A stretch of 64,000 nt of DNA from Desulfuromonadales bacterium (GTDB taxonomy: Bacteria; Desulfobacterota; Desulfuromonadia; Geobacterales; Pseudopelobacteraceae). The notes under the pieces were generated by a model, which was not told where the DNA came from, searched no databases, and saw only the letters and a program-made list of their open reading frames with translations. A program made the translations under genes and the position numbers. How positions within the stretch are numbered: position 1 is the stretch's first letter; each line of letters begins with the position of its first letter. Shown here one piece after another: positions 9,074-64,000 of the stretch. Location of the stretch: assembly GCA_016650295.1 (NCBI GenBank), contig JAENWA010000059.1, forward strand, positions 1-64,000, read 5' to 3'.

Positions 9074-9106
9074 GGACAAAAAAACGTTTTTGGGCTTATT
9101 GCACTT

Positions 9107-11488: not shown

Positions 11489-12637
11489 TCACACCCGCTC
11501 ATACGGTTCAAACAACCTCTTGTACTCATCCAGCGCGAAACGGTCGGTCATGCCGGCAATGTAGTCGCAGACGGTCCGTTCCAGACCGAAGTGCTCGCTG
11601 CGCAGGCGGTATTTGGGGGGCAGCAGGTTGGGATACTTGAGATAGGTTTCGAACAGCCGGGTGATGAAGATCTCCGACTTGACCCGCATCTTGTCCACCT
11701 TGTAATGGCGGTAAAGATGTTCAAACAGGAAACGCTTCAGCTCCTGATTCTGGATGGTTATATCCTCGCTGAAATGGGCGACCGCCCGGTTGACCCGGCG
11801 CAGGTCGTCCAGGGACGAGATCGACAATTGCTCCAGGTTTGCCGTAATGGTGCCGCAGATATTGCCGATCAGGAGCCCGATCAGGGCACTGATGGTCTGG
11901 TACACCAGGCGTTTGTCGTCAATGGCGGGGTACTTTTCGCGGACGCCTGCACTGACCTGTCTCCAGAGCGAGATCCGTTCCAGCATATCCAGGGTGATAT
12001 AGCCCGATTTCAGGCCGTCGTCGATGTCGTGGTTGTTATAGGCAATTTCATCGGCGTAATTGATGATCTGCCCCTCGATAGAGGGAACCACACCCGGCAG
12101 GAACTCTGCCATGGTTGCGGTCGGGGCGTCATAGGGGCTGGCATGCTTGATGATCCCTTCCCGCAGTTCCCAGGTCAGGTTGAGCCCGTTGAAACCGGGG
12201 TAGCGTTCTTCCAGCTCATCCACGACCCGGAAGGACTGCAGGTTGTGCTCGAAGCCGCCTTTCCCTTGCATCAGCCGGTTCAAGACATCCTCGCCGGTAT
12301 GGCCGAAGGGGGTATGCCCCAGGTCGTGGGCCAGGGCCAGGGCCTCGGTCAGCTCCTCGTTCAGGTGCAGCTTGCGGGCAATGGCCCGACCGATCTGGGC
12401 CACCTCCAGCGAATGGGTCAGGCGGGTACGGTAGTAATCCCCTTCGTGGTTGACGAAGACCTGGGTCTTGTACTCCAGCCGCCGGAACGCGGCGCAGTGG
12501 ATGATCCGGTCGCGGTCGCGCTCAAAGGCCGGACGCGGGTCACGAAAATCCTCCTGGTGCTTCCGTCCGCGCGACAGGGCGCTGCTGCTGGCATAACCGG
12601 CCAGATCGGTGCGTTCGGTTGATTCAGTCATCACCAT
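11489..12637 (-). CDS. dgt: Deoxyguanosinetriphosphate triphosphohydrolase-like protein
   Basis: A 382-residue HD-domain enzyme that removes triphosphate from deoxynucleoside triphosphates. Visible motifs are FERDRDRIIHCAAFRRLEYK (near 37), RTRLTHSLEVAQIGR (near 70), LAHDLGHTPFGHTGE (near 103) and YADEIAYNNHDIDD (near 190), which supply the HD metal ligands and the nucleotide pocket. The length fits the Dgt type-2 subfamily (about 380). The start ATG 12637 has GGAGG 6 bases upstream. It stands alone, 96 bases beyond the hypothetical gene. Confidence 0.92.
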   Translation of the reverse strand: MVMTESTERTDLAGYASSSALSRGRKHQEDFRDPRPAFERDRDRIIHCAAFRRLEYKTQVFVNHEGDYYRTRLTHSLEVAQIGRAIARKLHLNEELTEALALAHDLGHTPFGHTGEDVLNRLMQGKGGFEHNLQSFRVVDELEERYPGFNGLNLTWELREGIIKHASPYDAPTATMAEFLPGVVPSIEGQIINYADEIAYNNHDIDDGLKSGYITLDMLERISLWRQVSAGVREKYPAIDDKRLVYQTISALIGLLIGNICGTITANLEQLSISSLDDLRRVNRAVAHFSEDITIQNQELKRFLFEHLYRHYKVDKMRVKSEIFITRLFETYLKYPNLLPPKYRLRSEHFGLERTVCDYIAGMTDRFALDEYKRLFEPYERV

Positions 12638-12739
12638 GTAATCCCTCCACGCCGCACAATAATCTAATTGTACCGATTTTTTAACTGTTTTATCTTGAGG
12701 CTCAAAAAATATGGCAGGGAGCGGGGCTGGTTAACGAGA

Positions 12740-12789
12740 AAATGATGCTCTCACTCGACTTTCATCAATTGGTGGTGAGAGCATCATTT
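12740..12789. terminator. Long perfect hairpin between dgt and secreted-protein gene
   Basis: AAATGATGCTCTCAC (12740-12754) and GTGAGAGCATCATTT (12775-12789) are exact 15-bp inverted repeats with a 20-base loop. On the reverse strand it lies 55 bases past the stop of the gene at 12845, so it may terminate that transcript, but no long U-run follows. The unusually long perfect stem also fits a small palindromic element. Confidence 0.5.
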
Positions 12790-12844
12790 ATTAGACATTT
12801 CATACAACGACCGCATTTGCGACGGTCCGGGAGTTTTGCCGTTC

Positions 12845-13345
12845 CTAGCGCCGACCTTCACCACGATGTTCACCACCACGGTGATCGCCATCGTGTCTAT
12901 CACCGCGATGATCACCACCACGGCCTTCACCCCGCGGCCCCTCTCCAGGTCTGTGCCAGCGACCACGATAATGTTCGCGATCCCGGTCGTATTTGCGGAA
13001 TTCTCTGTCACGGAAATGACGAATATCCGCGTACCTGTGATTGCGGAGTCCCGGCGGCAGTCTGCGGGATTCAACCCCTACCCACGGGCCGTTATAGTTG
13101 CGGGACCGGTAGTAATAGCCATTGTTGTAGAGGTAGTAGTCATTGCCGATGTAGACGATGTCATAGGGTGCCCCCACCGATACGTGGAAACCGAGTGACG
13201 GCGCGTAAATGAACTCGGGGGCCGTCTGGACAACAACTGTCGGCGGCAGCGGGAGCGGTATACCGATTCTGATATCGACGCCGGCGCTAGCCGAAACAGC
13301 CACGGCGACTGCGAGAAACAATCCAAATAATAATGTTTTTTTCAT
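12845..13345 (-). CDS. Secreted protein with Arg/Gly/His/Asp-rich tail
   Basis: A 166-residue exported protein. A signal peptide (MKKTLLFGLFLAVAVAVSAS, cleavage near ASAG at 20-22) is followed by a Pro/Tyr-rich region (APYDIVYIGNDYYLYNNGYY, RSRNYNGPWVGV) similar to small periplasmic proteins of unknown function in Geobacter relatives. The last 45 residues are a low-complexity HR/GD-rich tail (GDHRGDRHDGDHRGGEHRG), which could bind metal or polyanions. AAGGAGCTGTC precedes the ATG at 13345. No partner genes are evident. Function unknown. Confidence 0.75.
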   Translation of the reverse strand: MKKTLLFGLFLAVAVAVSASAGVDIRIGIPLPLPPTVVVQTAPEFIYAPSLGFHVSVGAPYDIVYIGNDYYLYNNGYYYRSRNYNGPWVGVESRRLPPGLRNHRYADIRHFRDREFRKYDRDREHYRGRWHRPGEGPRGEGRGGDHRGDRHDGDHRGGEHRGEGRR

Positions 13346-13486
13346 GACAGCTCCTTTTCTTCCGATTATTCAACAATCAGCAGTGGGAATTAAAAACTCA
13401 TGGTTCTGTTACTTCTACGTATAATTATACCTGAAAAACAGAAAAACTGTAGCGGGTGAATATATCTATTTAGGCGAGGTCCACAG

Positions 13487-15565
<2,079 letters not shown>

Positions 15566-15588
15566 GCGCGCCTGGCTTCACGACTCAC

Positions 15589-15625
15589 AAACAAGCCCAC
15601 TACCGGTCCGGTGGAGGGCTTGTTT
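15589..15625 (+). terminator. Intrinsic terminator after rep
   Basis: AAACAAGCCC and GGGCTTGTTT are exact 10-bp arms around a GC-rich loop, 24 bases past the rep stop. The A/T-rich ends make it usable from both sides, which fits the convergent small gene to the right. Confidence 0.8.
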
Positions 15626-15656
15626 GGTTCATTCTGTTTTCGACGTGCGTTTGTAG

Positions 15657-15797
15657 TCAGTGCTTCGATATATACTTTTTAAGATCCTCTGCTACTTCCT
15701 GAGCAGCATCTTCAACCCTGGAACCTTCGCGGGCAAAGTGTCTGAATTTGGCAATGGTTTTGCCTGCATTGTTCTTTATGAGTAATTCAACATCTTG
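15657..15797 (-). CDS. Small hypothetical protein
   Basis: A possible 46-residue protein reading MQDVELLIKNNAGKTIAKF, ending with EVAEDLKKYISKH. The strand-then-amphipathic-helix pattern and the clean position between a terminator and a divergent gene argue that it is real. No good ribosome binding site is seen before ATG 15797; an upstream start at 15839 would add 14 residues. I know no family for it. Confidence 0.4.
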   Translation of the reverse strand, partial: QDVELLIKNNAGKTIAKFRHFAREGSRVEDAAQEVAEDLKKYISKH

Positions 15798-15934
15798 CAT
15801 AATAAATATACAGCCCAATCCATGCATGTCAACATACACGACAGGACTTTGCGAAAATCAAAAGACATGCTGCAGCAATCTTTCTGCTGGCTTCGTGATG
15901 AACTTTCTGCAAAAATAGCCATGGAGGTTATCCC

Positions 15935-18061
<2,127 letters not shown>

Positions 18062-18189
18062 TACATAGTCACTGCTATAATTTTTTTCAGCACCCTCTCT
18101 ATGAAAGCGTTTCATAAAGTATACTTTTTCAGAATGCCCGGTCGTGCTATAGTTGTTTTCTGATATATTTAAACAATGCGAGGATAGCC

Positions 18190-19161
18190 ATGATTCCAGA
18201 AATACCAGGAATCTTCCTGAAGCGTGCGCTTCTCTCAGCGCTGATGGCGTCAGCAGTATTCTGCTTCATCCCGCGGGACGCCCAGGCCGTTCAGTGGCAG
18301 GCACTGGCCCGCACCGGTCGTCACGAAGTCGCCATAGACAGCGGCTCCATACGATTGACCAAACTGAGCAGGCTGGCTGTCTGGCTCAGGTTCACACCGC
18401 TTGACGAACTGCAACGCAAGCAGGCTGCTGCTGAATACGGACAGAAGGCTTATCGGCTTCACCTTGAATATTACGAGATCGACTGCAGTGAACAGAGTGC
18501 CGTATCGGGTATCGTCGAAATCCTGGGTCCGGCCAGAAAACGGCTGGCCCTGGTGAAGTCGGACGGACCGCCGGAAGCCATTATTCCAGGTTCGGCACTG
18601 GATCTGGCTGCCCGGCAGATCTGTCCCGCTCTGGAGGACGACAGCGTAAGCGATGAGAATGACATAGAGTCTCCTGATAGCGGCGCACTCCCGGAAGAAG
18701 CCCAGGAGAAACAGATACCGGAAGAAGCCCGCTTCGCGATCGTGGAAGCACTTCAAAAGACCGAACGCGACCCGAAGGACCTTGAGGCTTGGCGCGGCCT
18801 CGGGAACGCCTATTATGACGCGGACAGTCCTGCACAGGCTATCGCAGCCTATGATCGGGCGCTGGCTATCAAGACCGACGACAGCAACATACTCAATGAC
18901 CAGGGCGCCATGTTTCGTCAGACGGGAGAATTCACCCGCGCCCTGGCGAACTTTGAAAAGGCACGCTCGGCAGACCAGAGTAACCTGGAGAGTCTCTATA
19001 ATATCGGCTATGTCCTCGCCTTTGACCTGAACCAGATCGACAAGGCGGTTGTTGTGTGGCGCAGGTATCTGACACTGGACAAGACCAGTGAATCATCTCG
19101 TCAGGTACTGTCGTTTATCGAGCGTTACGCTAAGCCGGACAGCAAAAACGCACGGAAGTAA
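18190..19161 (+). CDS. Secreted TPR protein with surface-adhesin-E-like domain
   Basis: A 323-residue exported protein. A signal peptide occupies residues 1-35 (cleavage near DAQA). Residues 36-150 (WQALARTGRHEVAIDSGSI, VWLRFTPLDE, YRLHLEYYEIDCSEQ) resemble the small surface-adhesin E-like domain. An acidic linker leads to two to three TPR units (190-300) with AWRGLGNAYYDADSPAQAIAAY-type repeats. The TPR part is closely similar to the TPR protein encoded at 29110, which also has the DQGAMFRQTG/DQGVMYRRVG and NIGYVLAFDLNQ/NMGILYSVDMKQ pairs. It probably acts as a periplasmic scaffold; the partner is unknown. Confidence 0.8.
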   Translation: MIPEIPGIFLKRALLSALMASAVFCFIPRDAQAVQWQALARTGRHEVAIDSGSIRLTKLSRLAVWLRFTPLDELQRKQAAAEYGQKAYRLHLEYYEIDCSEQSAVSGIVEILGPARKRLALVKSDGPPEAIIPGSALDLAARQICPALEDDSVSDENDIESPDSGALPEEAQEKQIPEEARFAIVEALQKTERDPKDLEAWRGLGNAYYDADSPAQAIAAYDRALAIKTDDSNILNDQGAMFRQTGEFTRALANFEKARSADQSNLESLYNIGYVLAFDLNQIDKAVVVWRRYLTLDKTSESSRQVLSFIERYAKPDSKNARK

Positions 19162-19232
19162 ACGTCCGTGAAAATCAAAGTGGTTGAAACAAGGCCGCTG
19201 ACATGCTACAAAAGCCACCTTCCACTATGCAT

Positions 19233-19309
19233 GCGCCCGTAGCTCAGCTGGATAGAGTACCTGGCTTCGAACCAGGGTGTCGGGAGTTCGAATCTCTCCG
19301 GGCGCGCCA
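19233..19309 (+). tRNA. tRNA-Arg (anticodon TCG)
   Basis: A 77-base cloverleaf. The acceptor arms GCGCCCG and CGGGCGC pair, the D arm is GCTC/GAGT, the anticodon stem CCTGG/CCAGG encloses the loop CTTCGAA with anticodon TCG (reads CGA, Arg), and the T arm carries TTCGAAT. The 3' CCA is encoded in the DNA. It stands alone between two protein genes and no integrated element abuts it. Confidence 0.95.
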
Positions 19310-19471
19310 ATAAAAACATCAGGTTATGGATTTTATCTGTAGCCTTTTTTTATGTGATTACCATTGGAATGGAATCAATGAGGATCTTTAGTAAGTTAGA
19401 AGTTATTTGCTGCGGTTTTCTTGCAGAAAATAACTTCGTTAACGCACTTATCCTGTTTATAAGGGCTTGGT

Positions 19472-52371: not shown

Positions 52372-52792
52372 ACGTGTTTCTCGACACTTCCGCACTTGTT
52401 AAGCTTTATCATGATGAAGAAGGTACTACTGAACTCATGGCTATCCTTACAAGAGGAATTGAAGAAATCTGGCTGTCTGAGCTTGCCATGCTGGAGTTCA
52501 GATCCGCTCTTTGGAAAAAAGTCCGCACTGGTGAACTTCCGAAGTCGGATGCTGTGAGGGTTGTTGAATGCTTCGAAAATGATCAGAATAAATTCCGGTG
52601 GGTAAGATTGAAGCTTTCGTCATACTTCAAGCCTCTGCCATGCTTATGAAATATGGCGAAAAAGGTCTGCGGACTCTCGACTCAATACAACTTGCAACAG
52701 CACTGCACCTGCAATCGCCAAATCTCCTCTGTCTCACATCCGACACTCTTCTCCGCTCATTCTTTCAAGATGAAAATTTAGTATCAGGTTGA
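52368..52792 (+). pseudogene. PIN-domain toxin (VapC type), frameshifted
   Basis: The first frame encodes MNVFLDTSALVKLYHDEEGT (catalytic Asp), LSELAMLEFRSALWKK and VVECFENDQNKFRWV. Near base 52606 the frame breaks; the family continues in another frame with KIEAFVILQASAMLMKYGEK, GLRTLDSIQLATAL (catalytic acidic residues) and CLTSDTLL. Loss of one base near GTAAGATT explains it. As it stands no full-length ribonuclease is made, so the toxin is probably inactive unless the base change is an error. Confidence 0.85.
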
Positions 52793-52849
52793 ATCTGGTT
52801 TTGGTGCCCGTTACCAAGCTCCAGCTTGCAGACAAAAGCATATAAGGGG

Positions 52850-53256
52850 TCAGTCCTTGACATGAGACAAAATATTTTCAAACCAACTCATTTCCTTCCC
52901 CAGAGAAGTATCAGTTTTCAAATCCATCAAAATCCGCTGATATGCCTTATCAACTGCAAAACCACTTATTCCACCTATTGCTACTCCGTTCCATTGTTTT
53001 AACCCGTCATCCTTGCGAGGGAAAATCAGTTATTCAATCTCTGTGATCTGGCCGCTAAACATGCAAGGCCTGGCGACGACATAAGCTGCAAATAAAGAGT
53101 CCTTAAACCTGTAGTAGCGTTCTCGAAGATTTTCAATTTCAGAGCCGTAAGGCTCCGTCACAAGCTGACCAACATATTGGCTCGGATTATCAACGTTACC
53201 ACCCTGATGTCGTCAGCTGTTAACAATCGGCTTTGTTCATCCCTCGTTAGATTCAT
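52850..53256 (-). pseudogene. Decayed gene with frameshift and internal stop
   Basis: Starting at ATG 53256 the reverse strand reads MNLTRDEQSRLLTADDIRVV; near base 53190 the coding signal shifts frame to VDNPSQYVGQLVTEPYGSEI, then RFKDSLFAAYVVARPCMFSG, a TAA stop at 53030, and continues in the same frame with GLKQWNGVAIGGISGFAVDK and MSWFENILSHVKD to a stop at 52850. Amino-acid composition is gene-like in all parts. I do not recognise the family. At least two lesions make it non-functional. Confidence 0.55.
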
Positions 53257-53439
53257 GCAGGAAAAGTGTCTTAACAAATAAAAAACCAAATATTTTGCAT
53301 CCCCTTCCATGCCATTGCATGTCACTATCGCTGCCTGCACATCTCTTCTTAATAAATATCTCGACCCTCATTTAACGTCCCGCTCCTTTCTCGCATGTCA
53401 GGATTGCCATCATGACCAGTTCTTAACCACTTGTAATAA

Positions 53440-53643
53440 CTATTTTTTCACATTGGCCTTTCAGTCTCAATCGAAGACACTACTCGAGAACATTCCTCAC
53501 GCAAATCCGTCAAGTTACCCAAAAATATCTTAAGCACACCTCTCGGCACAATTTTTGAATGCTTCCAGCCGAAAGAACAAATTAACAGATTTTTCTTTCC
53601 GGTTGAATTGGAAGAGATTCCAGCGCGGCTTGACGAATTCTGA
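53440..53643 (+). pseudogene. Coding remnant, C-terminal fragment
   Basis: An open frame of 67 codons without a start reads IGLSVSIEDTTREHSSRKSV, LGTIFECFQPKEQINRFFF and PVELEEIPARLDEF, then stops at 53643. The acidic, proline-containing C-terminus looks like the end of a real protein. No family is recognised. Confidence 0.35.
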
Positions 53644-53672
53644 TCGGTGATGGCGCTCTAAAAATGATATGA

Positions 53673-53698
53673 ATGCACCCGATGTCTGTCGGATGCAT
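53673..53698 (+). promoter_or_regulatory. Hairpin in the multicopper oxidase leader
   Basis: ATGCACCCGA and TCGGATGCAT pair (one mismatch) around TGTCTG and are followed by ATTTT, 30 bases ahead of the start at 53728. It could be a weak terminator or an operator-like dyad; it precedes the AGGAGG ribosome binding site. Confidence 0.4.
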
Positions 53699-53727
53699 AT
53701 TTTAATCTTTACTCATAGGAGGAAGTA

Positions 53728-55731
53728 ATGAAACGTTTGATGGCGGTTTTACTTTTGTGCTGTACTGGTATGCTTATTGCCGCTTGCGGCAGGGACACCA
53801 ACACCAACACCATCACGGTGGTGGAGGGCTCCTCAAAAACCACACTGCTTAATCCGCTGGCGCTGCAGCAGTTCGTCACTCCCGTGCAGATCATTCCGGC
53901 GGCAACCCCTGACACAACCACCGTACCCGGCTCCGACTACTATACTGCGGTGGCCGAACAGACCAGCGGCTATGATTTCGGCCTGCGCAAGAAGGACGGC
54001 AGCGAGTTCATTGATCCGGCCACCGGCGCCCCCATCCGGACCACGGTCTGGGGTTACACCACCAACGGCATCAAGGCCGGCTATCTGGGTGCAACCATTG
54101 AGACCCGCTCGGCTCTGGCCGGGGAGACCGGCAAACCGGTCGTGGTCAAATTCACCAACAACCTGAAAGATGCGGCCGGAAAACTCCTCACGAAGCATCT
54201 GCTGACAGTGGATCCCACCTTTGGCGGCGCCAGCAACGGCGAATCGGAAATACGCATCGTCACCCACCTGCATGGCGGACATGTGGCTCCCGAGTCCGAC
54301 GGGCACCCCGAGGCCTGGATCACAAATGACCCGAATGCCGCCACCGGTCTTCCCGCGGATCCGGTCAGCGGTCGTCCGGCACGGCCTAATGGAAACACGG
54401 TCACCTACACCTACGACAACACACAGATTGCAAACCAGCTCTGGTACCATGACCACGCCATGGGAATCACCCGTCTCAACGTCTACGCCGGTCTGGCCGC
54501 CAACTACTTTCTGAGGGACAGCGTCGAGGATGGCCTTAACCTGCCAAAGGGCGCCTACGAGATCCCGCTGGTAATCCAGGACAAATCGTTTAACGAGGAT
54601 GGCTCGCTGCATTACGACACCAACGCCCTGCTCAATCCGGACGGTTCACAGCAGACGGTTGCCGGTAAGCCGGTCTTTACCTCGAATCCCGAATTTTTCG
54701 GCAATGTCATCACCGTCAATGGCAAAGCCTGGCCCAAACTGGACGTGGAGCCACGTAAATACCGCTTCCGCATGGTAAACGGCTCCGATTCCCGCTTCTA
54801 CAACATCTGGCTGGAGCGTTCCGACGGACTACCGATACCGGCCGGGGCCATCACCCAGATCGGCAACGACGGCGGCCTTCTGCCGGCCGCAGTCGCCATC
54901 GGTGACAGCCCGGGCAACGCTCTTTTGTTTGCGTTGGCCGAACGGGCCGACGTGATCATCGATTTCTCGCAATTCCCCGCCGGCACCAGTATCACCGTGC
55001 GAAACGACGCCGACACCCCCTACCCCGATGGTGGTGATGTGAATCCCTCCACAACCGGCAAAATCATGCAGTTCAAAATTACCAAAGCCTTGGCAGGTGC
55101 GGATACGAGTGTAGTTCCTGCCACCCCCCGGGTTTTGACTCCGTTTGGTGCGCCTGCGAATACACGACTTGTCGATCTCCAGGAAAAAGAAGAGGATACC
55201 GCCTTCGTGTTCGACCCCTTCAGCGGAGCGATTGCCAAGCGTCTCAAGATTCTCCTGAACGGGCTGCCCTTCGATGCCCCCATAACCGAAAATATCCTGC
55301 TGAATAATGTGGAAGACTGGTACATCATCAACGACACGGTTGACATGCATCCGATGCATCTCCACCTGGTTCACTTCGAAGTCATTGAAAAGGGCAGCAT
55401 CCTGCCGGGCGCCTATACGCGGGCAAATGTAAATGGTCTCGGGGGCATGCCGACCGTAGCTGCCGGTGGATTCAGACCGTCAACCGAACCTGACGGAACG
55501 ATTGCTGATCCCGCTTCGCCCTATACGCTGCAGCCACAGGAGCGCGGGCACAAGGATACGGTGCGGGTACCACCGGCTGTCGAGTTGGTGGGCTCCCAGG
55601 TCCCCCCCCAGGTCTCCCAGGGCTACGTGCGCATCCGGGCCAGATTTGACCGGATTGGCACCTATATGTGGCATTGCCATATTCTGGCCCACGAGGATCA
55701 CGAGATGATGCGGCCCTTCAGGGTTCAATAA
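53728..55731 (+). CDS. Multicopper oxidase lipoprotein
   Basis: A 667-residue exported copper oxidase. The signal sequence ends in the lipobox LIAAC (C20), so it is a lipoprotein. All four copper-ligand boxes are present: THLHGGH (H180, H182), WYHDHAMG (H241, H243), DMHPMHLHLVHF near 540, and MWHCHILAHEDHEM (HCH 649-651, with M660). The spacing and sequence resemble CotA/bilirubin-oxidase-like enzymes and the Geobacter OmpB/OmpC type. Such enzymes oxidise metals or phenolics with oxygen; in Geobacter they were linked to metal oxide use. AGGAGG lies 6 bases before the ATG. Large secreted repeat proteins follow. Confidence 0.93.
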   Translation: MKRLMAVLLLCCTGMLIAACGRDTNTNTITVVEGSSKTTLLNPLALQQFVTPVQIIPAATPDTTTVPGSDYYTAVAEQTSGYDFGLRKKDGSEFIDPATGAPIRTTVWGYTTNGIKAGYLGATIETRSALAGETGKPVVVKFTNNLKDAAGKLLTKHLLTVDPTFGGASNGESEIRIVTHLHGGHVAPESDGHPEAWITNDPNAATGLPADPVSGRPARPNGNTVTYTYDNTQIANQLWYHDHAMGITRLNVYAGLAANYFLRDSVEDGLNLPKGAYEIPLVIQDKSFNEDGSLHYDTNALLNPDGSQQTVAGKPVFTSNPEFFGNVITVNGKAWPKLDVEPRKYRFRMVNGSDSRFYNIWLERSDGLPIPAGAITQIGNDGGLLPAAVAIGDSPGNALLFALAERADVIIDFSQFPAGTSITVRNDADTPYPDGGDVNPSTTGKIMQFKITKALAGADTSVVPATPRVLTPFGAPANTRLVDLQEKEEDTAFVFDPFSGAIAKRLKILLNGLPFDAPITENILLNNVEDWYIINDTVDMHPMHLHLVHFEVIEKGSILPGAYTRANVNGLGGMPTVAAGGFRPSTEPDGTIADPASPYTLQPQERGHKDTVRVPPAVELVGSQVPPQVSQGYVRIRARFDRIGTYMWHCHILAHEDHEMMRPFRVQ

Positions 55732-55754
55732 CCTCGCCAGCTGTGGCTGTATGA

Positions 55755-55949
55755 TACAAATCCGAGCGCCCATCCGGCACCACTACGTTTACTCAGGGTC
55801 GCGCTTACTCTACCACCCCGACCTGGACCTGGGATACCGCCGCCTTGGGACTCCCGGCAGGTGCCTACGTAGTGCGGGTCAACACGCGGCATGTCGGCAG
55901 TGCACTTAGCTTTGAGGCTAACAGGTCGATCAATTTTAGCCTGCAGTAA
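55755..55949 (+). pseudogene. C-terminal fragment of a secreted repeat protein
   Basis: The frame between stops at 55752 and 55947 reads GTTTFTQGRAYSTTPTWTW, DTAALGLPAGAYVVRVNTRH and SFEANRSINFSLQ, without a start codon or ribosome binding site. It looks like the last beta-sandwich unit of a surface protein and ends similarly to the giant neighbours (LNFIVQ). It is probably the remains of a gene deleted between the oxidase and the repeat proteins. Confidence 0.6.
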
Positions 55950-55975
55950 TTAGTATCTTTCATTCTAGTGGCATC

Positions 55976-56003
55976 AGAAGCGGGGTATCATTGCCCCGCT
56001 TCT
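55976..56003 (+). terminator. Intrinsic terminator
   Basis: AGAAGCGGGG and CCCCGCTTCT form an exact 10-bp stem with an 8-base loop, followed by CTTATTTATT. It closes transcription from the multicopper oxidase. Confidence 0.88.
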
Positions 56004-56414
56004 CTTATTTATTCTGAGCTGTTCCGATTGGAACGCCTGGTTTCATAGATCTATAATTCAACCCGGAATACTCAAACTGCCATTAATGTTCTCCCGGACA
56101 ATCTCCCACCAGAGGGGAATGGCTTCAAGAATCTTTCTTCTCGTACCCACACCCCCATGCAAGTTTTTTGGCAGTTACCACACTGTAATTATGCAATAAA
56201 ACTCTTTTATATCAGCTTTTTGGATTATCACTGCAATTATTTTCATACTAAACAGACTACCTGCGTAATTATGTTTACTGCAGGCAAACTACCCGTAACA
56301 AGCTGATATGATTATGCTAAATTTATTTAATTTATTTGGCACACTTCCTGTATAATATACAATATATTGTTCACAAAATTGTCTGCACAACAGACTAATC
56401 AACAAGGAGGTTGT

Positions 56415-59400
56415 ATGAAAAGTAAATCGTTTGTTTCACTCTTCACGCTCATGTTTGTACTGCTCATGAGCAGCGTAGCGAGTGCCGCCCCAACCCTCGT
56501 GTCGCCGTCCCCGAATTCTTTCGGCGAGATCGAGAGGATCACCCTCAATGACCCGGCTAACGTCTATTCAGGCGGTGTACTGGTTGTCGGGGGGGTCGAA
56601 ATGATCCTGCCCAAGAACCTGCTCATCGACCTGCCGGCCAACCGGCTCTCCCTGCAACAGATCTTCGACCAGGCGCCGGCGGCCTGCAAGGCCCAGAATC
56701 CGCCAGAAAGCGGCCTGGCAAAGGTTGACAAGTGCAACGCAACCGGCTCCGGCGGCATAGCCACCCTCTCGGCTGTGCGCACCAATGCCGGCAACGTGAT
56801 CGTCGGCGATCTTTTCATCCAGAAGGCAGCTGAAACGGTGCACGGCGTGGTCACCTACATCAACTACGACCAGGGCTACTACCGGGTCAACGGTTCGGCC
56901 ACTAACCCGGCCAATACCGGGGCCATGGTCCGTCTCAACGACCCGGGCCTCCGCCACACCATCCAGAGCGGCGCAGGCTGCGCAGGCGGCCCCAACTGCA
57001 GCCCGGACCCCCGTTTCTGCCTCGATCCGGACAACTACACTAACACCTTCACGACCGGGTACCCGATGTGTATCCCGAGCACGGTTTCCCGACCTTTCCC
57101 CGGACTTACCGGTGTTCCTGCCGGGACTGCTGTTGCTGCGGCTGACGGCACCGGCGACCTCCTCTGCCCCGACACCAACCGGACCGCGGCGCTGGTCGAA
57201 CCGGCGGTGGCGGACTCACGGCGTTTCGCTCCCGTCAAGCTCGGCGACACCGCGCTCGCGGAAGGGAATTTCGAGACCGTCGGCGGAGTCCGTTTCCTGT
57301 CGGCCCACTCATCGTCCGTCCAGAAGGCGCTCTCGACCAGAACTGCGGCAGACCAGCCCGATTACCTGTTCCTTGAGGAGGTCGGCGTCGAAGCGCCCCC
57401 CTATCAGAACCAGCGGCTGATAACCTTGTTGATCGGCTTTACCACCCTTGCAAACCCCGCCACCGACGTGGATCTCTGGACGTTGCACCGTGATCCGGTG
57501 ACCAACGAGACTCACGAGTTCCCCTTTGCTTCCGTACAGGGGTGCGACAATGCGGGTGGCGCGGGAACCTGCTCCAACCAGGGGCTCGTCGGAGCCGGCG
57601 CCAACATCTTCAAGATCCGCCACGACGTGGATTTCCTTATCGGCCCCCAACCCAAGCTCTCTCCCTGCGCCCACCTGCTGGCCTCCCGCTTTGCGACTTC
57701 GCATCCCGGCATCTGCAGCGGCGCGCCTACCACTGCTCGTGACATTGCCGTCCTGAGCCCGGTTCCCCATGAGATCATCGCCCGGACCGGCCGCAAGATC
57801 ACCAGCCCCGCCGGATCGCTCATCACCATCGACATCAACGGCAACCCTGCCACCAACGGCGAGTACCTCTTCCCGCTCGGGCTGAACCTGGGTGGGTTAG
57901 GAGTTGCGGAAATGAGCGAAGTCAACATCAACGAGCTCTTCACCCCGATTCCTTTCGAAGGTATCACCTGGAACCTCGACCGCCGTCTCGGCCCGTCCGG
58001 CTGCCTGAACAACGGCGGCGTCTGTGAAGCGGGCGCCGTCGGCAGCGCCGCCTTCGCACTTGATCCGTTCCCCTACTCCGGCCTCGACCCTCGCCTCCAG
58101 ACCAGCCTCTTGCCGAACGTTTCGTACATCGACCCGGTCTTCTCACCCACTACTCTGACCAGCTCACGGAACCGGATGTTCTCCTACGTGTTAGGCACCA
58201 ATTTTAACGGCAATGCCACTGTTATGCCCTACGCCCTTGGAACCTTCCCGGCTGATCCGCCACTGATTCAGATCAATCCGACACCAGCTCTGAACATCTT
58301 TCCGCCGGTAGTTGTTGCAGATTCTGCCACTACACCTACGGGAACCGCTGTCGTTATCAATGTTCTGGCTAACGATGTCGCGGTGCTGGGCACACTTGAT
58401 CCGCTTTCCGTAACAATTGTTACTCCTCCTGCCAGCGGCACGGCCGTGGTAAATCTCCCGGCAGGAACCATAACCTACACCCCGACAACACCGTTCTCGG
58501 TCGGGACAGCAACCTTTACCTATACCGTTGCCAACAACTTCGGTTCGGTTTCATCGCCGGCAACCGTAACCGTAACGATTACGCGAAAACCGACCGCCGT
58601 CAACGACACCGCCATAGTTCCGGCCAAGTCTTCCAGCACTATCTCTCTGGTCGCCAATGATATCGCCGGCACCAGCCCTCTTAACCTGGCATCCGTTGTT
58701 ATCGTCTCGGCTCTTCCTGCTAATGGCAGCTGCGGAACTCTGCTCAACAACCTGGACGGCAATGTGCTCTACACTGCCCCTCAGACCGTTCCAGCAGCAC
58801 CGGGCACCTGTTCCTTCAGCTACACCATCAGCGACGTCTCCTTACCGGCCCTAATTTCCAACGTCGCCACCGTAACCGTGACAATCACGGCGCCGGTTGC
58901 CCCGACAGCAGTCAACGACACGGCAACCACCACTACCGGTTTGGCGGTAATTATTCCGGTCCTGACAAATGACACGTCACCCCTCAGCGCGATCAACCCG
59001 GCCACGGTTTCGGTGAGCACCCCGACCGGCGCCATAGCACCCAACACCAATAGCGGTACAGTATCCGCCAACCTCAACGGCACGGTCACCTACACAGCCC
59101 CGCCAACAGCGGGAACCTACGTATTCTCGTACACCGTCAAAAACAGTGCCGTGACGCCGTCGATCTCCAACACCGCCACGGTGACTATCACTGTCACCCA
59201 GGGTCACATCGCCCCGACAGCGGTCAACGATACGTTCCCCAATGCGACCGTCCCGGCCCTGATAACCGCAGGTTCTCCGGTAACTCTGAACGTCCTGACC
59301 AATGACACGGCAACCACGGGTTCGCTTATCAACCCGGCTTCGGTCGCAGTTAGTGTTCCGGCAGGTAACGGTTCAGCAACCGTTGATGCTATTACCGGCA

Positions 59401-60164
59401 TAGTTACCTATACACCTCCGGCTACTGCGGGGACCTACACCTTCACCTACACCGTGAAGGACAACTTCAGCACGCCGGCAACTTCCAATGTTGCCACTGT
59501 GACCGTGACGGTGACGGTGACCGCGTCTGCGCCGCCTGCAGCAACAACCATCTTTAACCCTACCGGCAACATCAGCACAATAACACCGTCATTCTCTTTC
59601 GTCGCTGTACCTGGTGCTACTGGTTACCAACTCTTCCTTCAGAACAATACCACCGGCACAGGGGCCCCAACTGCCGTATTCACTCCTGTTCAGGCCGGGT
59701 GCGCCTCAGGTACCGGCTTATGCAGCATTACTCTGCCATCATCTCTGCTCAACAACAACGCCTATTCATGGCAAGCTTCGGCACTTAACGCAGCTGGCCA
59801 AGGACCGTGGAGTAATGGTTTGAACTTTTTTGTCGGCGCCCTTGTTCCGCCTGCACCGACTATCATCAGTCCAACCGGCACAGTAATCACTACTACGCCG
59901 GCCTTTACTTTTAACGCAGTTCCTGGAGCAACTGGTTACCAGCTCTTCCTCCAGAACAATACAACTGTAACTGGTCATACCTCGATCGTATTTACACCTG
60001 AGCAAGCGGGTTGCCCATTAAACGGTGGCAATGGCATCTGTAGCCTTAACATCAACTTTGCAACACCGCTTGTTTCGACCAACAGCTACTCGTGGAATCT
60101 TTCCGTTCTGAATGCAGCAGGACAAGGGCCGTTTAGTACAGGTTTGAACTTCATTGTACAATGA
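56415..60164 (+). CDS. Giant secreted protein with Ig-like and fibronectin-like repeats
   Basis: A 1249-residue exported protein. The signal peptide (1-26) ends near SVASAAP. Residues 27-630 form a large unique Cys-containing domain without a family I recognise (VYSGGVLVVGGVEMILPKNL, LRHTIQSGAGCAGGPNCSPD). Four cadherin/Ig-like units of the VNDTATT type start near 635, 726, 831 and 934. Two fibronectin-like units follow (1043-1146 and 1147-1249), each with PGATGYQLFLQNNTT and AAGQGP. These resemble adhesive or scaffold proteins of the cell surface. AGGAGG lies 5 bases before ATG 56415. The two final units are almost identical to those of the gene at 60824. Confidence 0.85.
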   Translation: MKSKSFVSLFTLMFVLLMSSVASAAPTLVSPSPNSFGEIERITLNDPANVYSGGVLVVGGVEMILPKNLLIDLPANRLSLQQIFDQAPAACKAQNPPESGLAKVDKCNATGSGGIATLSAVRTNAGNVIVGDLFIQKAAETVHGVVTYINYDQGYYRVNGSATNPANTGAMVRLNDPGLRHTIQSGAGCAGGPNCSPDPRFCLDPDNYTNTFTTGYPMCIPSTVSRPFPGLTGVPAGTAVAAADGTGDLLCPDTNRTAALVEPAVADSRRFAPVKLGDTALAEGNFETVGGVRFLSAHSSSVQKALSTRTAADQPDYLFLEEVGVEAPPYQNQRLITLLIGFTTLANPATDVDLWTLHRDPVTNETHEFPFASVQGCDNAGGAGTCSNQGLVGAGANIFKIRHDVDFLIGPQPKLSPCAHLLASRFATSHPGICSGAPTTARDIAVLSPVPHEIIARTGRKITSPAGSLITIDINGNPATNGEYLFPLGLNLGGLGVAEMSEVNINELFTPIPFEGITWNLDRRLGPSGCLNNGGVCEAGAVGSAAFALDPFPYSGLDPRLQTSLLPNVSYIDPVFSPTTLTSSRNRMFSYVLGTNFNGNATVMPYALGTFPADPPLIQINPTPALNIFPPVVVADSATTPTGTAVVINVLANDVAVLGTLDPLSVTIVTPPASGTAVVNLPAGTITYTPTTPFSVGTATFTYTVANNFGSVSSPATVTVTITRKPTAVNDTAIVPAKSSSTISLVANDIAGTSPLNLASVVIVSALPANGSCGTLLNNLDGNVLYTAPQTVPAAPGTCSFSYTISDVSLPALISNVATVTVTITAPVAPTAVNDTATTTTGLAVIIPVLTNDTSPLSAINPATVSVSTPTGAIAPNTNSGTVSANLNGTVTYTAPPTAGTYVFSYTVKNSAVTPSISNTATVTITVTQGHIAPTAVNDTFPNATVPALITAGSPVTLNVLTNDTATTGSLINPASVAVSVPAGNGSATVDAITGIVTYTPPATAGTYTFTYTVKDNFSTPATSNVATVTVTVTVTASAPPAATTIFNPTGNISTITPSFSFVAVPGATGYQLFLQNNTTGTGAPTAVFTPVQAGCASGTGLCSITLPSSLLNNNAYSWQASALNAAGQGPWSNGLNFFVGALVPPAPTIISPTGTVITTTPAFTFNAVPGATGYQLFLQNNTTVTGHTSIVFTPEQAGCPLNGGNGICSLNINFATPLVSTNSYSWNLSVLNAAGQGPFSTGLNFIVQ

Positions 60165-60180
60165 TTGATAGATAAAAACA

Positions 60181-60208
60181 GGGACGCAGTTCTAACGAAC
60201 TGCGTCCC
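60181..60208 (+). terminator. Terminator hairpin of giant gene
   Basis: GGGACGCAGTTC and GAACTGCGTCCC form an exact 12-bp stem with a 4-base loop, 17 bases past the stop. There is no long U-run, and a second hairpin follows. Confidence 0.75.
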
Positions 60209-60234
60209 TCTAAACCTGGGCTAATAATTAGAAT

Positions 60235-60269
60235 GAAAAAGTCGAGAGCTTATAACTTTCGGCTTTTTC
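60235..60269 (+). terminator. Second terminator hairpin of giant gene
   Basis: GAAAAAGTCGAGAG and CTTTCGGCTTTTTC pair with two mismatches; the right arm ends in a T-run, as in a bidirectional terminator. A copy exists at 63153-63187. Confidence 0.75.
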
Positions 60270-60299
60270 AATTTCCGACAGGTATTGCGGTTATAATCA

Positions 60300-60823
60300 T
60301 TCATGTCTATGGGAGCCAGTCTGTTCATCTTTCTGCTGCTCCAGACAGTCACAGCATATCAGTAACAGCCAGGGTATAAAAACGTTCACAACAAACACGT
60401 AAATTAACTCATACAGATATATCTGCCACTTTTGTTGCCTATGTTTACTGTATATAACCGGCTGTTCTGCGGGTACGAGATTATAATAAAACTTCCAATT
60501 GAATGGGCACCAACTTAAATATTATCAGCATTCTGTGTATGTTACGCGGCTATGTATCACTTTCATCAGGGCTGTCAATTAATTTGCACCTATTGGAAGC
60601 CCGCGATAATCTTGATTAATTCAATAACATATTAAAAACAGACATGAATTCAATAATACACCGACTTGGTATGTTTCATGCTATAGTGTTTAATCACTAA
60701 TTATTTCAAGTGCGATAGTAGACAGTATCCGTTACAATTTATATCATTTAACTTGCACTGCGTTACGTCGAAGCTAACTTGCAAATACCGAGTATGGCAA
60801 TCCATTCAAAAGGAGGAAAAAGT
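60300..60823. other. Leader region of second giant gene with sigma-54-like promoter
   Basis: About 520 AT-rich bases without coding signal. TTGGTATGTTTCATGCT at 60666-60682 matches the sigma-54 pattern (GG 60668, GC 60680, ten bases apart) with one mismatch in the -12 box. The start at 60824 has AAAGGAGGAAAAAGT ahead of it. No enhancer-type repeat was identified. Confidence 0.45.
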
Positions 60824-63082
60824 ATGAAAAAGTTCAATCGATTTTTCGCATCACTTCTTCCCGTACTGCTGTTGCTCACGTTCCTGACCGGAAATGCGAG
60901 TGCAGCCATGCAGTCGGTCGGCCCTAACGACCCGGTAACAACGTTACCGACCTGGTACAGGGACAACAACAACCTCGCCCTGATGCCCTGCAACGATCAG
61001 GACACTCCCTACTGTATCCTGGGCCCCCCCTTCGACGCTTTGACGGTACCGCAAGTACCTATCACCACCACCGGGCCGATAACCGAAGCCAACTTCCCGG
61101 GTGAAGGCTTCTATTACTCTGCTTCCGCAACGATGCCCATTGAAGGGGGAACACCTAATAGAGATGCCCTGCTTATTTATGTCCTGGAGTTCGCCTTCCT
61201 GGGAGGAGTGACCCCGGATACTGGCGTGACTTTTTTGCGAACAGACCTGACGGAAATGAGGAACCTGCCGCCATTAACCCACTACAGGGTAACTCATCCA
61301 TATGGCACATTCGAATTCGAAACCGACAGCCAAGGCACGACCATAAGCGGCGGCAACGCTATACGCTTTGAAGACCAGCCCGGTAATGTTTTCAACTACC
61401 TGCCGCCGTTGTTTAAGAGTGCGCCTAACACCGGCATCGGCCCGTTCCTGAGGAATGCAAACGGCACCTTGGTTGTTCATGCTGCGACCGGTAAAACCTA
61501 TATCGGCGATGCGGTTACCCCGGTCACAGTGACCGGCGGCACCAATGGCAACATCTTCAAGATTGATCGGCTGACAGGACCCGGCGGCTCACCGGTACCA
61601 GGGGCATCATGGCAAACCAATCTCTTCACCCTCATGGGCCGGGTCTTCACCGGTCAGATCCCTTCTCCCATGACCATTGATCGCGTCACCTATGCCCGCG
61701 AGGCAGCATCGGAGCAGATCGATGTATTCGCTACCGCATTGCCGACTGCCATTCTCTCCATCAGCGGCAACGGCATAACGACAACGAACCTGACCCGTGA
61801 CCTCACCCCGAATACCACCAAATATTTTGCACATATTCCGCTGGCCTCGACAACGTTGCCTACTGCACTGAACATTACCAATTCCCTGGATACTCCCCCG
61901 ATCAACTATCCGGTCACCCTCGTGGATGATGTAGTTATCACCCAGGCATCCTACAACCCCGTTACCAGGGCCATGACGATCAAGGCGGATTCCCGGGACA
62001 ATCTGGCGCCTCTGCCTACCTTGACGGTTCCACAATTCGCCGCCCCGAGGACTCTTGACGCAACGGGAACGCTGGTCAAAACCTTACCGGTAAACACCAT
62101 CCCGCCGTTGACGGTAACGGTAACCTCTTCCAAATTAGGATCGGCCACGGCCTTTGTGAGCGTCGTTACCCCGCCGGCGCCACCGGTTGCGGTGGCTGAT
62201 ACGGCAACTACAGCCGCAAACTCCGCCGTGACGATCTCCGTGCTTGCCAACGACACAACGACCGGCACTGTCACGGTAGTAACGTCGGCTCCGCTCAACG
62301 GCACGGCTGTTGCGAATGCCAACGGCACAGTGACCTTTACGCCTACAGCGGGATTCTCCGGCGCGGCCAGCTTTAGCTATACGATTAATGATACCTTTGG
62401 CCAGATTTCCAATTCAGTGTCCGTCGCCGTGACCGTCACAGGTTCAACACTGCCCGCAGCAACAACTATCTTTAACCCTACCGGCAACATCAGCACAATA
62501 ACACCGGCCTTTTCTTTTGTCGCTATACCAGGTGCTACTGGTTACCAACTCTACCTTCAGAACAACACCATAGGTACGGGAGCCCCAACTGCCGTATTCA
62601 CTCCTGTTCAGGCCGGATGCGCCTCGGGTACCGGCTTATGCAGCATTACTCTGCCATCACCTCTGCTCAACAACAACGCATATTCATGGCAAGCTTCGGC
62701 ACTTAACACAGCTGGCCAAGGACCGTGGAGTAATGATTTGAACTTTTTTGTCGGCGCCCTTGTTCCGCCTGCACCGACTATCATCAGTCCAACCGGCACA
62801 GTTATTACTACTACGCCGCCCTTTACTTTTAACGCAGTTCCTGGAGCAACTGGTTATCAGCTCTTCCTCCAGAACAACACAACTGTAACTGGTCATACCT
62901 CGATCGTATTTACGCCTGAACAAGCGGGTTGTCCATTAAACGGTGCCAATGGCATCTGTAGCCTTAACATCAACTTTGCAACACCGCTTGTTTCGACCAA
63001 CAGCTACTCGTGGAATCTTTCAGTAGTGAATGCAGCAGGACAAGGGCCGTTTAGTGCGGGTCTGAACTTCATCGTTCAATGA
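60824..63082 (+). CDS. Secreted protein with Ig-like and fibronectin-like repeats, paralogue
   Basis: A 752-residue exported protein. Signal peptide 1-27 (cleavage near NASAAM). Residues 28-450 are a unique domain (LPTWYRDNNNLALMPCNDQD, NAIRFEDQPGNVFNYLPPL, TLMGRVFTGQIPSPMTIDRV) not seen in the first giant protein and not recognised. One cadherin/Ig-like unit (VAVADTATT, about 452-545) and two fibronectin-like units (546-649 and 650-752) follow; the latter are nearly identical to those of the neighbour. AGGAGG lies 8 bases upstream. The shared C-terminus suggests a common anchoring or export function, possibly with the multicopper oxidase at the cell surface. Confidence 0.85.
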   Translation: MKKFNRFFASLLPVLLLLTFLTGNASAAMQSVGPNDPVTTLPTWYRDNNNLALMPCNDQDTPYCILGPPFDALTVPQVPITTTGPITEANFPGEGFYYSASATMPIEGGTPNRDALLIYVLEFAFLGGVTPDTGVTFLRTDLTEMRNLPPLTHYRVTHPYGTFEFETDSQGTTISGGNAIRFEDQPGNVFNYLPPLFKSAPNTGIGPFLRNANGTLVVHAATGKTYIGDAVTPVTVTGGTNGNIFKIDRLTGPGGSPVPGASWQTNLFTLMGRVFTGQIPSPMTIDRVTYAREAASEQIDVFATALPTAILSISGNGITTTNLTRDLTPNTTKYFAHIPLASTTLPTALNITNSLDTPPINYPVTLVDDVVITQASYNPVTRAMTIKADSRDNLAPLPTLTVPQFAAPRTLDATGTLVKTLPVNTIPPLTVTVTSSKLGSATAFVSVVTPPAPPVAVADTATTAANSAVTISVLANDTTTGTVTVVTSAPLNGTAVANANGTVTFTPTAGFSGAASFSYTINDTFGQISNSVSVAVTVTGSTLPAATTIFNPTGNISTITPAFSFVAIPGATGYQLYLQNNTIGTGAPTAVFTPVQAGCASGTGLCSITLPSPLLNNNAYSWQASALNTAGQGPWSNDLNFFVGALVPPAPTIISPTGTVITTTPPFTFNAVPGATGYQLFLQNNTTVTGHTSIVFTPEQAGCPLNGANGICSLNINFATPLVSTNSYSWNLSVVNAAGQGPFSAGLNFIVQ

Positions 63083-63098
63083 TTTTCTGCTGAACTAA

Positions 63099-63126
63099 GG
63101 GACGCAGTTCTTACGGACTGCATCCC
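63099..63126 (+). terminator. Terminator hairpin of second giant gene
   Basis: GGGACGCAGTTC and GGACTGCATCCC pair with a few mismatches, followed by AAAAAA. It is the copy of 60181-60208. Confidence 0.65.
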
Positions 63127-63152
63127 AAAAAACCTAGGCTAATAATTAGAAT

Positions 63153-63187
63153 GAACAAGTCGAGAGTTTATAACTCTCGGCTTTTTC
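63153..63187 (+). terminator. Second terminator hairpin of paralogue
   Basis: GAACAAGTCGAGAG and CTCTCGGCTTTTTC pair, with the T-run in the right arm; copy of 60235-60269. Confidence 0.7.
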
Positions 63188-63381
63188 AATTTCCGACAGG
63201 TATTGCAGTTATAATCAGCAAGTCAAATCCAACCCTCCGTATTCTTACGTTTTTATCTAGCGCTGTCCATGCAGAATCGTATCGACTCTTTGGTTTCTTT
63301 AGTCCACGTTGTTGTTGTATTCAACTATTATTAATCATATAACAGTGTTCAGGATGCTTTATTAGTTTTGGAGGTGCCCTC

Positions 63382-64000
63382 ATGGAGTATTTTAGAATTA
63401 TTTCTTGGTTGTTCCTGACAATTATTTTCTTAGGCTGCACTCATGTCTGGGCTACGCAGCCACTCAATCAAAATGCCAGAGATGTTGTTGCCGAAAGCCC
63501 TATCGGGCAGGTGAATGCAAACCCCTTATCGTTTGGGGCTAAGGGCGACGCCCGTTACAAGACCTCAGGCGATGGTAACGCCTTGATATCAGGTACTGAT
63601 GATACTGCAGCTCTGACATTGTTTTTGTCTGATCGAAAAAAAACTAATAGCACCGGTTCACACTTCGGGGGTTCGTCTCTGCATCTCGGTTCAAATGTGT
63701 TTAAAATAACCGGAGCTTTTACCATCAACGACCACTACACCACGGTGACCGGCGAGGGATATGGAACTTCGGTGATTCATGCTTTAACCAGTGGCGGCAA
63801 TATTGACACACCTGTTATCACATTTAACAAAGGTGCAACAGGTGATGCCTGGAACGATTTGCTTTCAGGTGGTGGGTTAAAAGAGCTAACCCTAAAAACT
63901 GATGCTTCCTCAAGAAGAAATACTGGTCTTCTGCTAGATTATGCAGAATATATGAGGTTTTCAGACATAACTATTGAAGGATTCGGTCTCAGTGCAATTA
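63382..64000 (+). CDS. Exported beta-helix (pectate-lyase-superfamily-like) protein, N-terminal part
   Basis: The first 206 residues of a secreted protein cut by the window edge. The N-terminus (ISWLFLTIIFLGCTHVWA) is a signal sequence; LGC could be a lipobox, or cleavage may occur after VWA. LSFGAKGDAR and, after a short insertion, SGTDDTAALTLFLSDRK match the start of the pectate-lyase/tail-spike superfamily, whose usual form is FGAKGDG-x-TDDTAA. Repeated short strands (HYTTVTGEGYGTSVIHAL, LKELTLKTDASSRRNTGLLL, MRFSDITIEGFG) fit a right-handed beta-helix. GGAGG lies 7 bases upstream of ATG 63382. It may act on or bind surface polysaccharide. Confidence 0.75.
   Translation, partial: MEYFRIISWLFLTIIFLGCTHVWATQPLNQNARDVVAESPIGQVNANPLSFGAKGDARYKTSGDGNALISGTDDTAALTLFLSDRKKTNSTGSHFGGSSLHLGSNVFKITGAFTINDHYTTVTGEGYGTSVIHALTSGGNIDTPVITFNKGATGDAWNDLLSGGGLKELTLKTDASSRRNTGLLLDYAEYMRFSDITIEGFGLSAI

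Follow-up and report, generated by a model that had tools for sequence, protein, structure and literature searches.

The window, a 64,000-nucleotide stretch of a Desulfuromonadales genome, ends in a locus that encodes a multicopper oxidase (MCO), two secreted repeat proteins (P0002 and P0003) with N-terminal head domains that we call P2N and P3N, and a fourth secreted protein (Table 1). Pfam assigns the ten genes 5' of the MCO to sugar, ketoacyl-synthase, SDR, LolA, DUF4410, aminotransferase and PIN families; sugar-nucleotide genes and, judged by eye, sugar-transferase genes flank the locus; and Rfam gave no match at gathering scores in positions 52500-64000. The first-pass annotation had counted the fourth protein into the system as a pectate-lyase-like beta-helix protein; that likeness was read by eye, Pfam returned no match, and only position links the protein to the MCO, P2N and P3N.

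Table 1 Features of the locus, in window coordinates
Feature	Position	Strand	Evidence
CotA-type MCO, predicted lipoprotein, 667 aa	53728..55731	+	translation, Pfam, PDB search
Repeat-domain remnant, out of frame, directly past MCO stop codon	55776..55949	+	by eye
Terminator-like hairpin of 12 pairs with a T-rich tail, in the MCO-P0002 interval	55976..56003	+	
First secreted repeat protein P0002; ATG 56415 likely start, AAGGAG (Shine-Dalgarno) ahead; open frame from 56367	56415..60164	+	
P2N head domain of P0002, ~605 residues; unmatched in Pfam, NCBIfam, PDB	56487..58301	+	
Big_9/cadherin-like repeats of P0002, four stretches	58302..59532	+	Pfam
C-terminal block CREP of P0002, common to OmpB/MofA-type MCOs of the host's family	59535..60161	+	
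Two hairpins 3' of P0002, resembling those 3' of P0003; one (60240-60268) by eye	60181..60268	+	
Second secreted repeat protein P0003; likely start ATG 60824; open frame 60779-63082	60824..63082	+	
P3N head domain of P0003, ~420 residues; all-beta model	60908..62164	+	
Big_9 repeat of P0003	62180..62425	+	Pfam
C-terminal block CREP of P0003, 95% identical to CREP of P0002	62453..63079	+	
Terminator-like hairpin 3' of P0003	63157..63183	+	
Fourth secreted protein, 596 aa, runs on to contig base 65172	63382..64000	+	Pfam: none

The MCO has a signal peptide with a lipobox-like LIAAC and four copper motifs in its translation (THLHGGH, WYHDH, HPMHLH and HCHILAHEDHEMM), all recognized by eye, and both Cu-oxidase_2 and Cu-oxidase_3 score over the Pfam cut-offs. 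Among solved structures, CotA laccases are closest (best E 2.5e-83): spore coat protein A accounts for 12 of the 13 top PDB rows (E 2.5e-83 to 8.5e-79), and the other row is named copper oxidase. CotA-type MCOs are a class with broad laccase activity. The protein stops just past the last copper motif and so lacks the C-terminal FnIII/Ig stalk of OmpB/MofA-type enzymes; no mofC-like cytochrome, SCO or FKBP gene was found among the ten upstream genes, as assigned by Pfam, or downstream, where P2N and P3N lie. Conservation of the locus, which the first-pass annotation had proposed to check, was not borne out: P2N and P3N are absent from all 14 stretches around relatives of the window MCO, which cover 12 of the 16 other genomes of the host's family that have such a relative (seven genomes with close relatives, at 60-82% identity; G346, G357, G363, G366 and a second relative in G001 lie outside the set).

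Terminator-like hairpins with stems of 12-13 pairs stand 3' of the MCO, P0002 and P0003, and the window genes are therefore likely to be expressed independently; as such sites are no commoner here than in shuffled sequence (12 vs. 10.4), the hairpins are suggestive only. Independent expression, which the first-pass annotation had held to count against its own proposal, is thus indicated in part. The intergenic hairpins and the empty neighbourhoods of the MCO relatives together led us to reject the window as one conserved operon, and a sigma-54-like element seen by eye before P0002 was dropped as too weak.

Both P0002 and P0003 carry a Sec-type signal peptide, recognized by eye, and Big_9/cadherin-like repeats detected by Pfam. 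Their heads have no match at E 1 or better in Pfam or NCBIfam and no convincing sequence match in the PDB; weak collagenase matches of the P3N profile (E about 0.02) were taken as chance. Translations and these searches confirm the earlier description of a lipoprotein MCO followed by two large secreted proteins with unmatched N-terminal domains of about 600 and 420 residues. Structure prediction, suggested at the same time, succeeded for one head: the P3N model (mean pLDDT 85) is all beta, and its final 170 residues form two tandem sandwich domains, whereas P2N folded alone reached a pLDDT of 31 and was discarded. Foldseek found nothing for the P3N model at E <= 0.001; VIA-align mostly aligned its residues 250-419 with tandem sandwich domains, among them those of cytokine receptors and adhesins (best Z 8.5), and such matches may reflect a shared domain arrangement only.

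The heads recur beside MCOs well outside the host. In named genomes (27 genomes, five phyla), 16 of 29 P3N loci have an MCO within the flanks retrieved, with 0-6.1 kb between the nearest open frames and on the same strand at 15 of the 16; it is also present at 9 of 21 loci from the phylum sample and at both plasmid loci. None of 36 control stretches contained an MCO or MauG gene (17 hand-picked stretches of P3N-bearing genomes, three of the 20 planned being nonexistent, and 19 Big_9 repeat-protein loci of the host's family, one of which itself carries P3N). No MCO was in reach at the remaining 13 named-genome loci, nine of them on short or one-sided contigs, or at 12 of the 21 phylum-sample loci; L047, L059, L064 and L066 have full flanks and P3N with no MCO in reach. 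Some entries overlap: L044/L038, L046/L037 and L045/L231 are the same loci; L203, L205, L204 and L201 share contigs with L052, L053, L056 and L066, respectively; and L048 with L054, and L069 with L070, each come from a single genome. The phylum-sample neighbourhoods leave out G337:C76 and the short tail-only matches G148:C24, G172:C24, G192:C9 and G076:C3. Both heads are rare, with P3N in 7 and P2N in 2 of 76 genomes of the host's family, and P3N in 19 and P2N in 4 of the 297 genomes of the phylum sample, all 4 of which also have P3N.

Several of the MCOs near P2N or P3N are MnxG-type. The giant MCOs that neighbour P3N at two loci match a PDB structure of MnxG (E 9e-166 for L057, 1e-133 for L118), and L043, L044 and L046 combine an mnxG-profile MCO with beta-propeller, SCO and binding-protein-cytochrome c genes, plus P3N; the sequence from L043 is one of the four that make up the mnxG profile, and those from L044 and L046 match it. 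We propose, at a probability of roughly one half, that P2N and P3N are the heads of secreted, non-catalytic partners of extracellular metal-acting MCOs. Of the first-pass interpretation, an association of the unknown domains with MCOs across bacteria, far above controls, is supported, but the gene order is not conserved beside relatives of the window MCO. It is also conceivable, if rather improbable, that these MCOs are laccases that act on organic or matrix molecules, cross-linking surface polymers, with P2N and P3N proteins as their matrix substrates; the CotA type of the window MCO and the sugar genes flanking the locus would suit such a role, whereas several partner MCOs elsewhere are of the MnxG type, at three loci within the mnx gene set, a set tied to Mn oxidation.

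P2N has neighbours of another kind as well: among its 20 loci, an MCO is near 9, a MauG-type di-haem gene near 11 and one or the other near 16 (12 of 14 genomes), and genes for SCO copper chaperones are found near P2N in Methylococcales (L198, L202, L203, L205), Acidobacteria (L207) and Paraburkholderia (L028). In G013, P2N occurs without P3N and with no MCO within 20 kb. The available text of PMC3912023 describes CorA as co-transcribed with a MauG-like protein and as binding copper at a kynurenine-containing site. In the CorA/MopE and CorB/SACCP systems, as at the MauG-bearing P2N loci, a surface protein gene adjoins a MauG-like di-haem gene; no MCO is mentioned in that text. By analogy, a MauG-type protein could oxidize P2N residues, as proposed for those systems, and so create a site at the surface from which the MCO receives copper. 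The four cysteines invariant in 8 aligned P2N members fit such copper handling, as do the MauG and SCO neighbours; but no tryptophan is conserved across all 8 (best 6 of 8), PDB profile searches returned no CorA/MopE match, and the window P2N has no adjoining MauG gene. We consider this explanation improbable.

In the host genome the two proteins are tied to an oxidase by their stalk. CREP, the 209-residue C-terminal block that they share, is present in 5 of 76 genomes of the host's family, always on an OmpB-type MCO, and in the host it is confined to P0002, P0003 and an OmpB-like MCO whose pieces on contigs 28 and 123 are probably one broken gene; outside the family, CREP of G055 lies on a truncated open frame where no MCO was detected. 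Contig 28 holds this MCO with SCO, FKBP and a one-CXXCH protein, the last called a cytochrome c by that single motif and given no family by Pfam. In Geobacter, OmpB is secreted via OxpG; Pedomicrobium has moxCBA. The contig 28 genes match the OmpB/MofA set described for Geobacter sulfurreducens and Leptothrix in the available part of PMC5566968, where Geobacter work links this MCO class to metal oxide reduction. The Geobacter link drawn by the first-pass annotation is supported through the stalk; the window MCO is shorter, CotA-type and stalkless, and the P2N and P3N heads are not MCO domains. An unlikely alternative is that P0002 and P0003 are general surface adhesins that were inserted by accident beside an unrelated laccase: orthologues of the window MCO lack the pair, terminator-like hairpins separate the genes, and the stalk-plus-hairpin block is a 95% identical duplicate; however, the restriction of CREP in the host, and a second P3N locus on contig 121, where MauG genes are adjacent and a pair of MCOs lies at a distance of 11-14 kb, argue against accident.

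If P2N and P3N proteins are such partners, they would be exported, the repeat stalk would keep the head on the cell surface, and the head would bind the MCO, the metal on which the MCO acts or the mineral, allowing electrons or metal ions to pass between MCO and mineral. The window proteins may partner the adjoining CotA-type MCO, the contig 28 OmpB-like MCO with the common stalk, or the two together; the metal may be Mn or Fe, and oxidation and reduction are both possible. A broader version, which we put forward only tentatively and regard as doubtful, makes P2N and P3N a widespread, undescribed accessory layer of metal-oxidizing MCOs (MnxG-, CotA/McoA-, split- and OmpB-type), often with a MauG-type peroxidase, that places and shapes the surface metal oxide; in the host, partner heads would have taken the place of the OmpB oxidase head on its stalk. 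Because relatives of the heads repeatedly adjoin MCOs of metal-oxidizing kinds in distant bacteria, P2N and P3N point to an accessory component of metal chemistry at the surface that has yet to be described. Little is understood of the way in which MCO metal oxidases deal with solid oxide outside the cell; two head families found repeatedly near MCOs of different types, in several phyla, offer direct targets among genes, and as markers they could tell MCO loci that handle metals from those for copper resistance or laccases. The available text of the open-licence PMC papers searched does not name P2N or P3N, and hypothetical proteins of published clusters could be members.

Among described systems, the Pseudomonas putida GB-1 mnxG operon (PMC11409713, Table 4) is matched by L043, L044 and L046 in five of its six gene kinds and more, in a comparison that covered the kinds other than SurA; that table contains no P3N-like gene, and the window has no MnxG-type MCO. 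The Slit_1812-1818 cluster of Sideroxydans lithotrophicus ES-1 encodes MCO-type proteins, an SCO and a cytochrome, with higher abundance on magnetite, and similar clusters are known from Paraburkholderia and Anaeromyxobacter, among others, according to the available text of PMC12016527. These two genera also yielded P2N here; one of the searches used 20 of the 29 named-genome P3N loci, with G386:C156 outside the neighbourhoods covered. The Anaeromyxobacter P2N has no MCO or MauG within 20 kb, and the large protein Slit_1816 is described in the same paper as a cupredoxin protein. The Bacillus Mnx complex differs in scale: MnxE and MnxF are about 12 kDa, and the P2N and P3N heads, borne on long stalks, span 420-605 residues. 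It nevertheless offers the arrangement that we propose for P2N and P3N: MnxG, described in the available part of PMC5622069 as the only characterized MCO, as of 2017, that needs accessory proteins, oxidizes Mn together with the non-MCO proteins MnxE and MnxF.

Both secreted repeat proteins that follow the multicopper oxidase (MCO) in the window share one architecture, in which a signal peptide leads into a head domain (P2N, ~605 residues, in the first; P3N, ~420, in the second), Big_9 repeats (four stretches in the first, one in the second) and a 209-residue C-terminal block; this block, with the hairpins 3′ of it, is duplicated between the two at 95% protein identity. The signal peptides and database searches bear out the first-pass annotation, which had described secreted proteins with N-terminal domains of no known family: neither head matched Pfam or NCBIfam, PDB offered no convincing match, and the families are not named in the open-licence PMC papers searched. 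The structure prediction proposed there yielded for P3N a model (from 28 sequences; mean pLDDT 85) that is all-beta apart from one short helix, its final 170 residues forming two predicted tandem sandwich domains.

The MCO carries a lipobox-like signal and all four copper motifs, and CotA is its nearest solved relative. The remnant directly 3′ of it reads as if the MCO or its neighbour formerly had a longer end. Contig 59 spans 79,135 bp of the 4.07-Mb genome, the window being its first 64 kb; ten genes lie upstream (sugar nucleotides, ketoacyl synthases, others and a PIN-domain gene, by Pfam) and sugar-transferase genes downstream on the other strand (by eye), and the genes on either side look unrelated to the MCO.

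Coordinates of features in the window and in fetched loci
Feature	Location	Coordinates	Remarks
MCO	right end of window	53728-55731	667 residues
Repeat-domain remnant	directly 3′ of MCO stop codon	55776-55949	frame-shifted, readable
First secreted repeat protein	window	56415-60164	head P2N
Second secreted repeat protein	window	60824-63082	head P3N
Fourth secreted protein	after second repeat protein, running past the window end		stop at contig base 65172
Two more secreted proteins beside P3N, families unassigned	L053, L056 (Methylococcales)	12404-16501 (L053); 15676-18553 (L056)	~230-250 and 730-1110 residues; larger L053 protein with HYR domains
Split MCO pair preceding P3N	L026 (Arthrobacter FW305-BF8)	3643-9396	Nramp and metal regulator genes near
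Two P3N-like genes, MauG-type di-haem genes, split MCO pair	L041 and L110 (second locus, contig 121 of the genome that carries the window)	15000-52900	
TPR, pseudopilin, other type II secretion-like genes	L028, before Paraburkholderia P2N-MCO cluster	1414-6331	possible export route
Window-MCO orthologue, then SCO (copper chaperone), cytochrome c-binding-protein gene, OmpB-type giant MCO	L173 (G010)	8804-19330	

The local gene order, whose conservation the annotation had proposed to check, is not kept in the stretches sampled. Of 76 Pseudopelobacteraceae genomes, 17, including its own, encode a relative of the window MCO (E <= 1e-40), and neither P2N nor P3N was found in any of 14 stretches fetched around these relatives (12 genomes, seven at 60-82% identity; some stretches short). 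Terminator-like hairpins stand 3′ of each gene, in numbers not above those in shuffled sequence. The fourth protein, annotated as a beta-helix member of the locus, had no Pfam match, and no link to the locus was found.

The heads themselves are associated with MCOs elsewhere. A five-member P3N alignment was used for a pattern-based scan of 84,980 genomes; the scan misses relatives lacking those patterns, and it found 29 P3N loci in 27 genomes, under record names from Deltaproteobacteria/Geobacter/Pelobacter, Nitrospirae, Methylococcales, Actinobacteria, Anaeromyxobacter, Planctomycetota, Anaerolineales and Acidobacteria. Six-frame HMM searches placed an MCO inside the fetched flank at 16 (L043, 44, 46, 48, 50, 52, 53, 54, 56, 57, 58, 60, 61, 62, 65, 68), on the same strand in 15 and 0-6.1 kb from P3N between nearest stop-to-stop frames. 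The HMMs include sequences from six of these loci (L043, 52, 56, 57, 60, 65), whose MCOs were first detected with an HMM that used four other MCOs, by a copper motif, or by BLAST; Pfam confirmed those of L043, L057 and L060. Nine of the 13 loci without an MCO lie on short or one-sided contigs (L042, 45, 49, 51, 55, 63, 67, 69, 70); the other four (L047, L059, L064, L066) have full flanks. Only two P3N loci were found in plasmid records (Arthrobacter FW305-BF8 and Skermanella mucosa), both with MCOs.

With the same HMMs, neither MCO nor MauG (a di-haem protein) was found in 17 hand-picked control stretches (2-20 kb, same genome set; one weak binding-protein match in L135; L146 stops ~6 kb short of an MCO pair on contig 93) or in 19 around family Big_9 repeat proteins (6-20 kb; one weak SCO match in L215); one of the latter, L223, itself holds P3N. 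The difference (16/29 versus 0/36; Fisher's test, p = 1e-7) overstates the certainty, because several loci share an order or genus and so are not independent, and many controls are shorter than the 21-kb loci.

Within the phylum sample, P3N matched in 19 of 297 genomes; an MCO is present at 9 of 21 fetched loci, and MauG without an MCO at a further two (L109, L110). In the family, P3N occupies nine places in 7 of 76 genomes, five with an MCO in the fetched flank: the window, G009, G030, G351 and contig 9 of G010 (L228), where two MCO genes and MauG are packed together with P3N. On contig 121 of the genome that carries the window, two P3N genes adjoin MauG genes and are separated by 11-14 kb from an MCO pair; on contig 33 of G010, the distances from P3N are ~18 kb to an OmpB-type MCO and 27 kb to the window-MCO orthologue. 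No MCO occurs within 20 kb of P3N in G024, and the P3N contig of G366 is only 6.3 kb.

P2N was found in 4 of the 297 phylum genomes, all with P3N, and in 8 of 20 picked for having P3N; in one genome of the family, G013, P2N occurs but P3N does not. Twenty P2N loci (14 genomes) include an MCO at 9, MauG at 11 and either at 16, counting weak matches at L206 (MCO, E 2e-8) and L207 (MauG, E 1e-7); L039, L201 and two 5-kb contigs (L195, L196) have neither. The order is P3N ... MCO, SCO, MCO, SCO, P2N, MauG in two Methylococcales (L052/L203, L053/L205), and pseudopilin genes, P2N, MauG, P2N, MCO, SCO in Paraburkholderia. A rival reading of such neighbourhoods is a copper site made by MauG.

The MCOs recur as CotA/McoA-like, giant MnxG-type (matching solved MnxG at E 9e-166 in L057 and 1e-133 in L118), split pairs with Cu-oxidase_3, and OmpB-type (L114); laccase chemistry on the matrix is another alternative for them. 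Most probably, the heads serve metal-handling extracellular MCOs as accessory surface proteins. The MCO association and the common stalk are observed; we infer that the proteins would be exported and that their heads would bind, and substrate and direction are inferred likewise. A further rival reading is that the repeat proteins are adhesins lying there by accident. The annotation's idea of partners is partly supported; a fixed local unit is not.

Elsewhere in this genome the C-terminal block occurs only on pieces at the ends of contigs 28 and 123, probably one gene; of these, that on contig 28 is an OmpB-like MCO. The block is present in five of the 76 family genomes (E <= 1e-10), in each on an OmpB-type MCO (L032, L030, L036, L182 and a fragment, L031), and G350 joins MCO, Big_9 repeats and block in one ~2450-residue protein. 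The window proteins therefore look like OmpB stalks bearing another head. However, in the more distant G055 the block sits on a frame of 2383 residues that the contig end truncates and in which no MCO was found, and in G015 a weaker profile match (E 4e-12) falls in a protein of 820 residues with one CXXCH.

The neighbours on contig 28 (SCO, a one-haem-motif protein, FKBP) are the gene kinds described for OmpB/MofA clusters in the part of PMC5566968 consulted. At L037 and L038, which duplicate L046 and L044 respectively, a ~2000-residue protein, with RCC1 repeats in the L038 copy, lies between an MnxG-type MCO and P3N. L043, L044 and L046 add P3N to the gene kinds of the Pseudomonas putida GB-1 mnxG operon, as described in the consulted portion of PMC11409713: an mnxG-profile MCO, SCO, a propeller and a gene for a binding-protein-cytochrome c.
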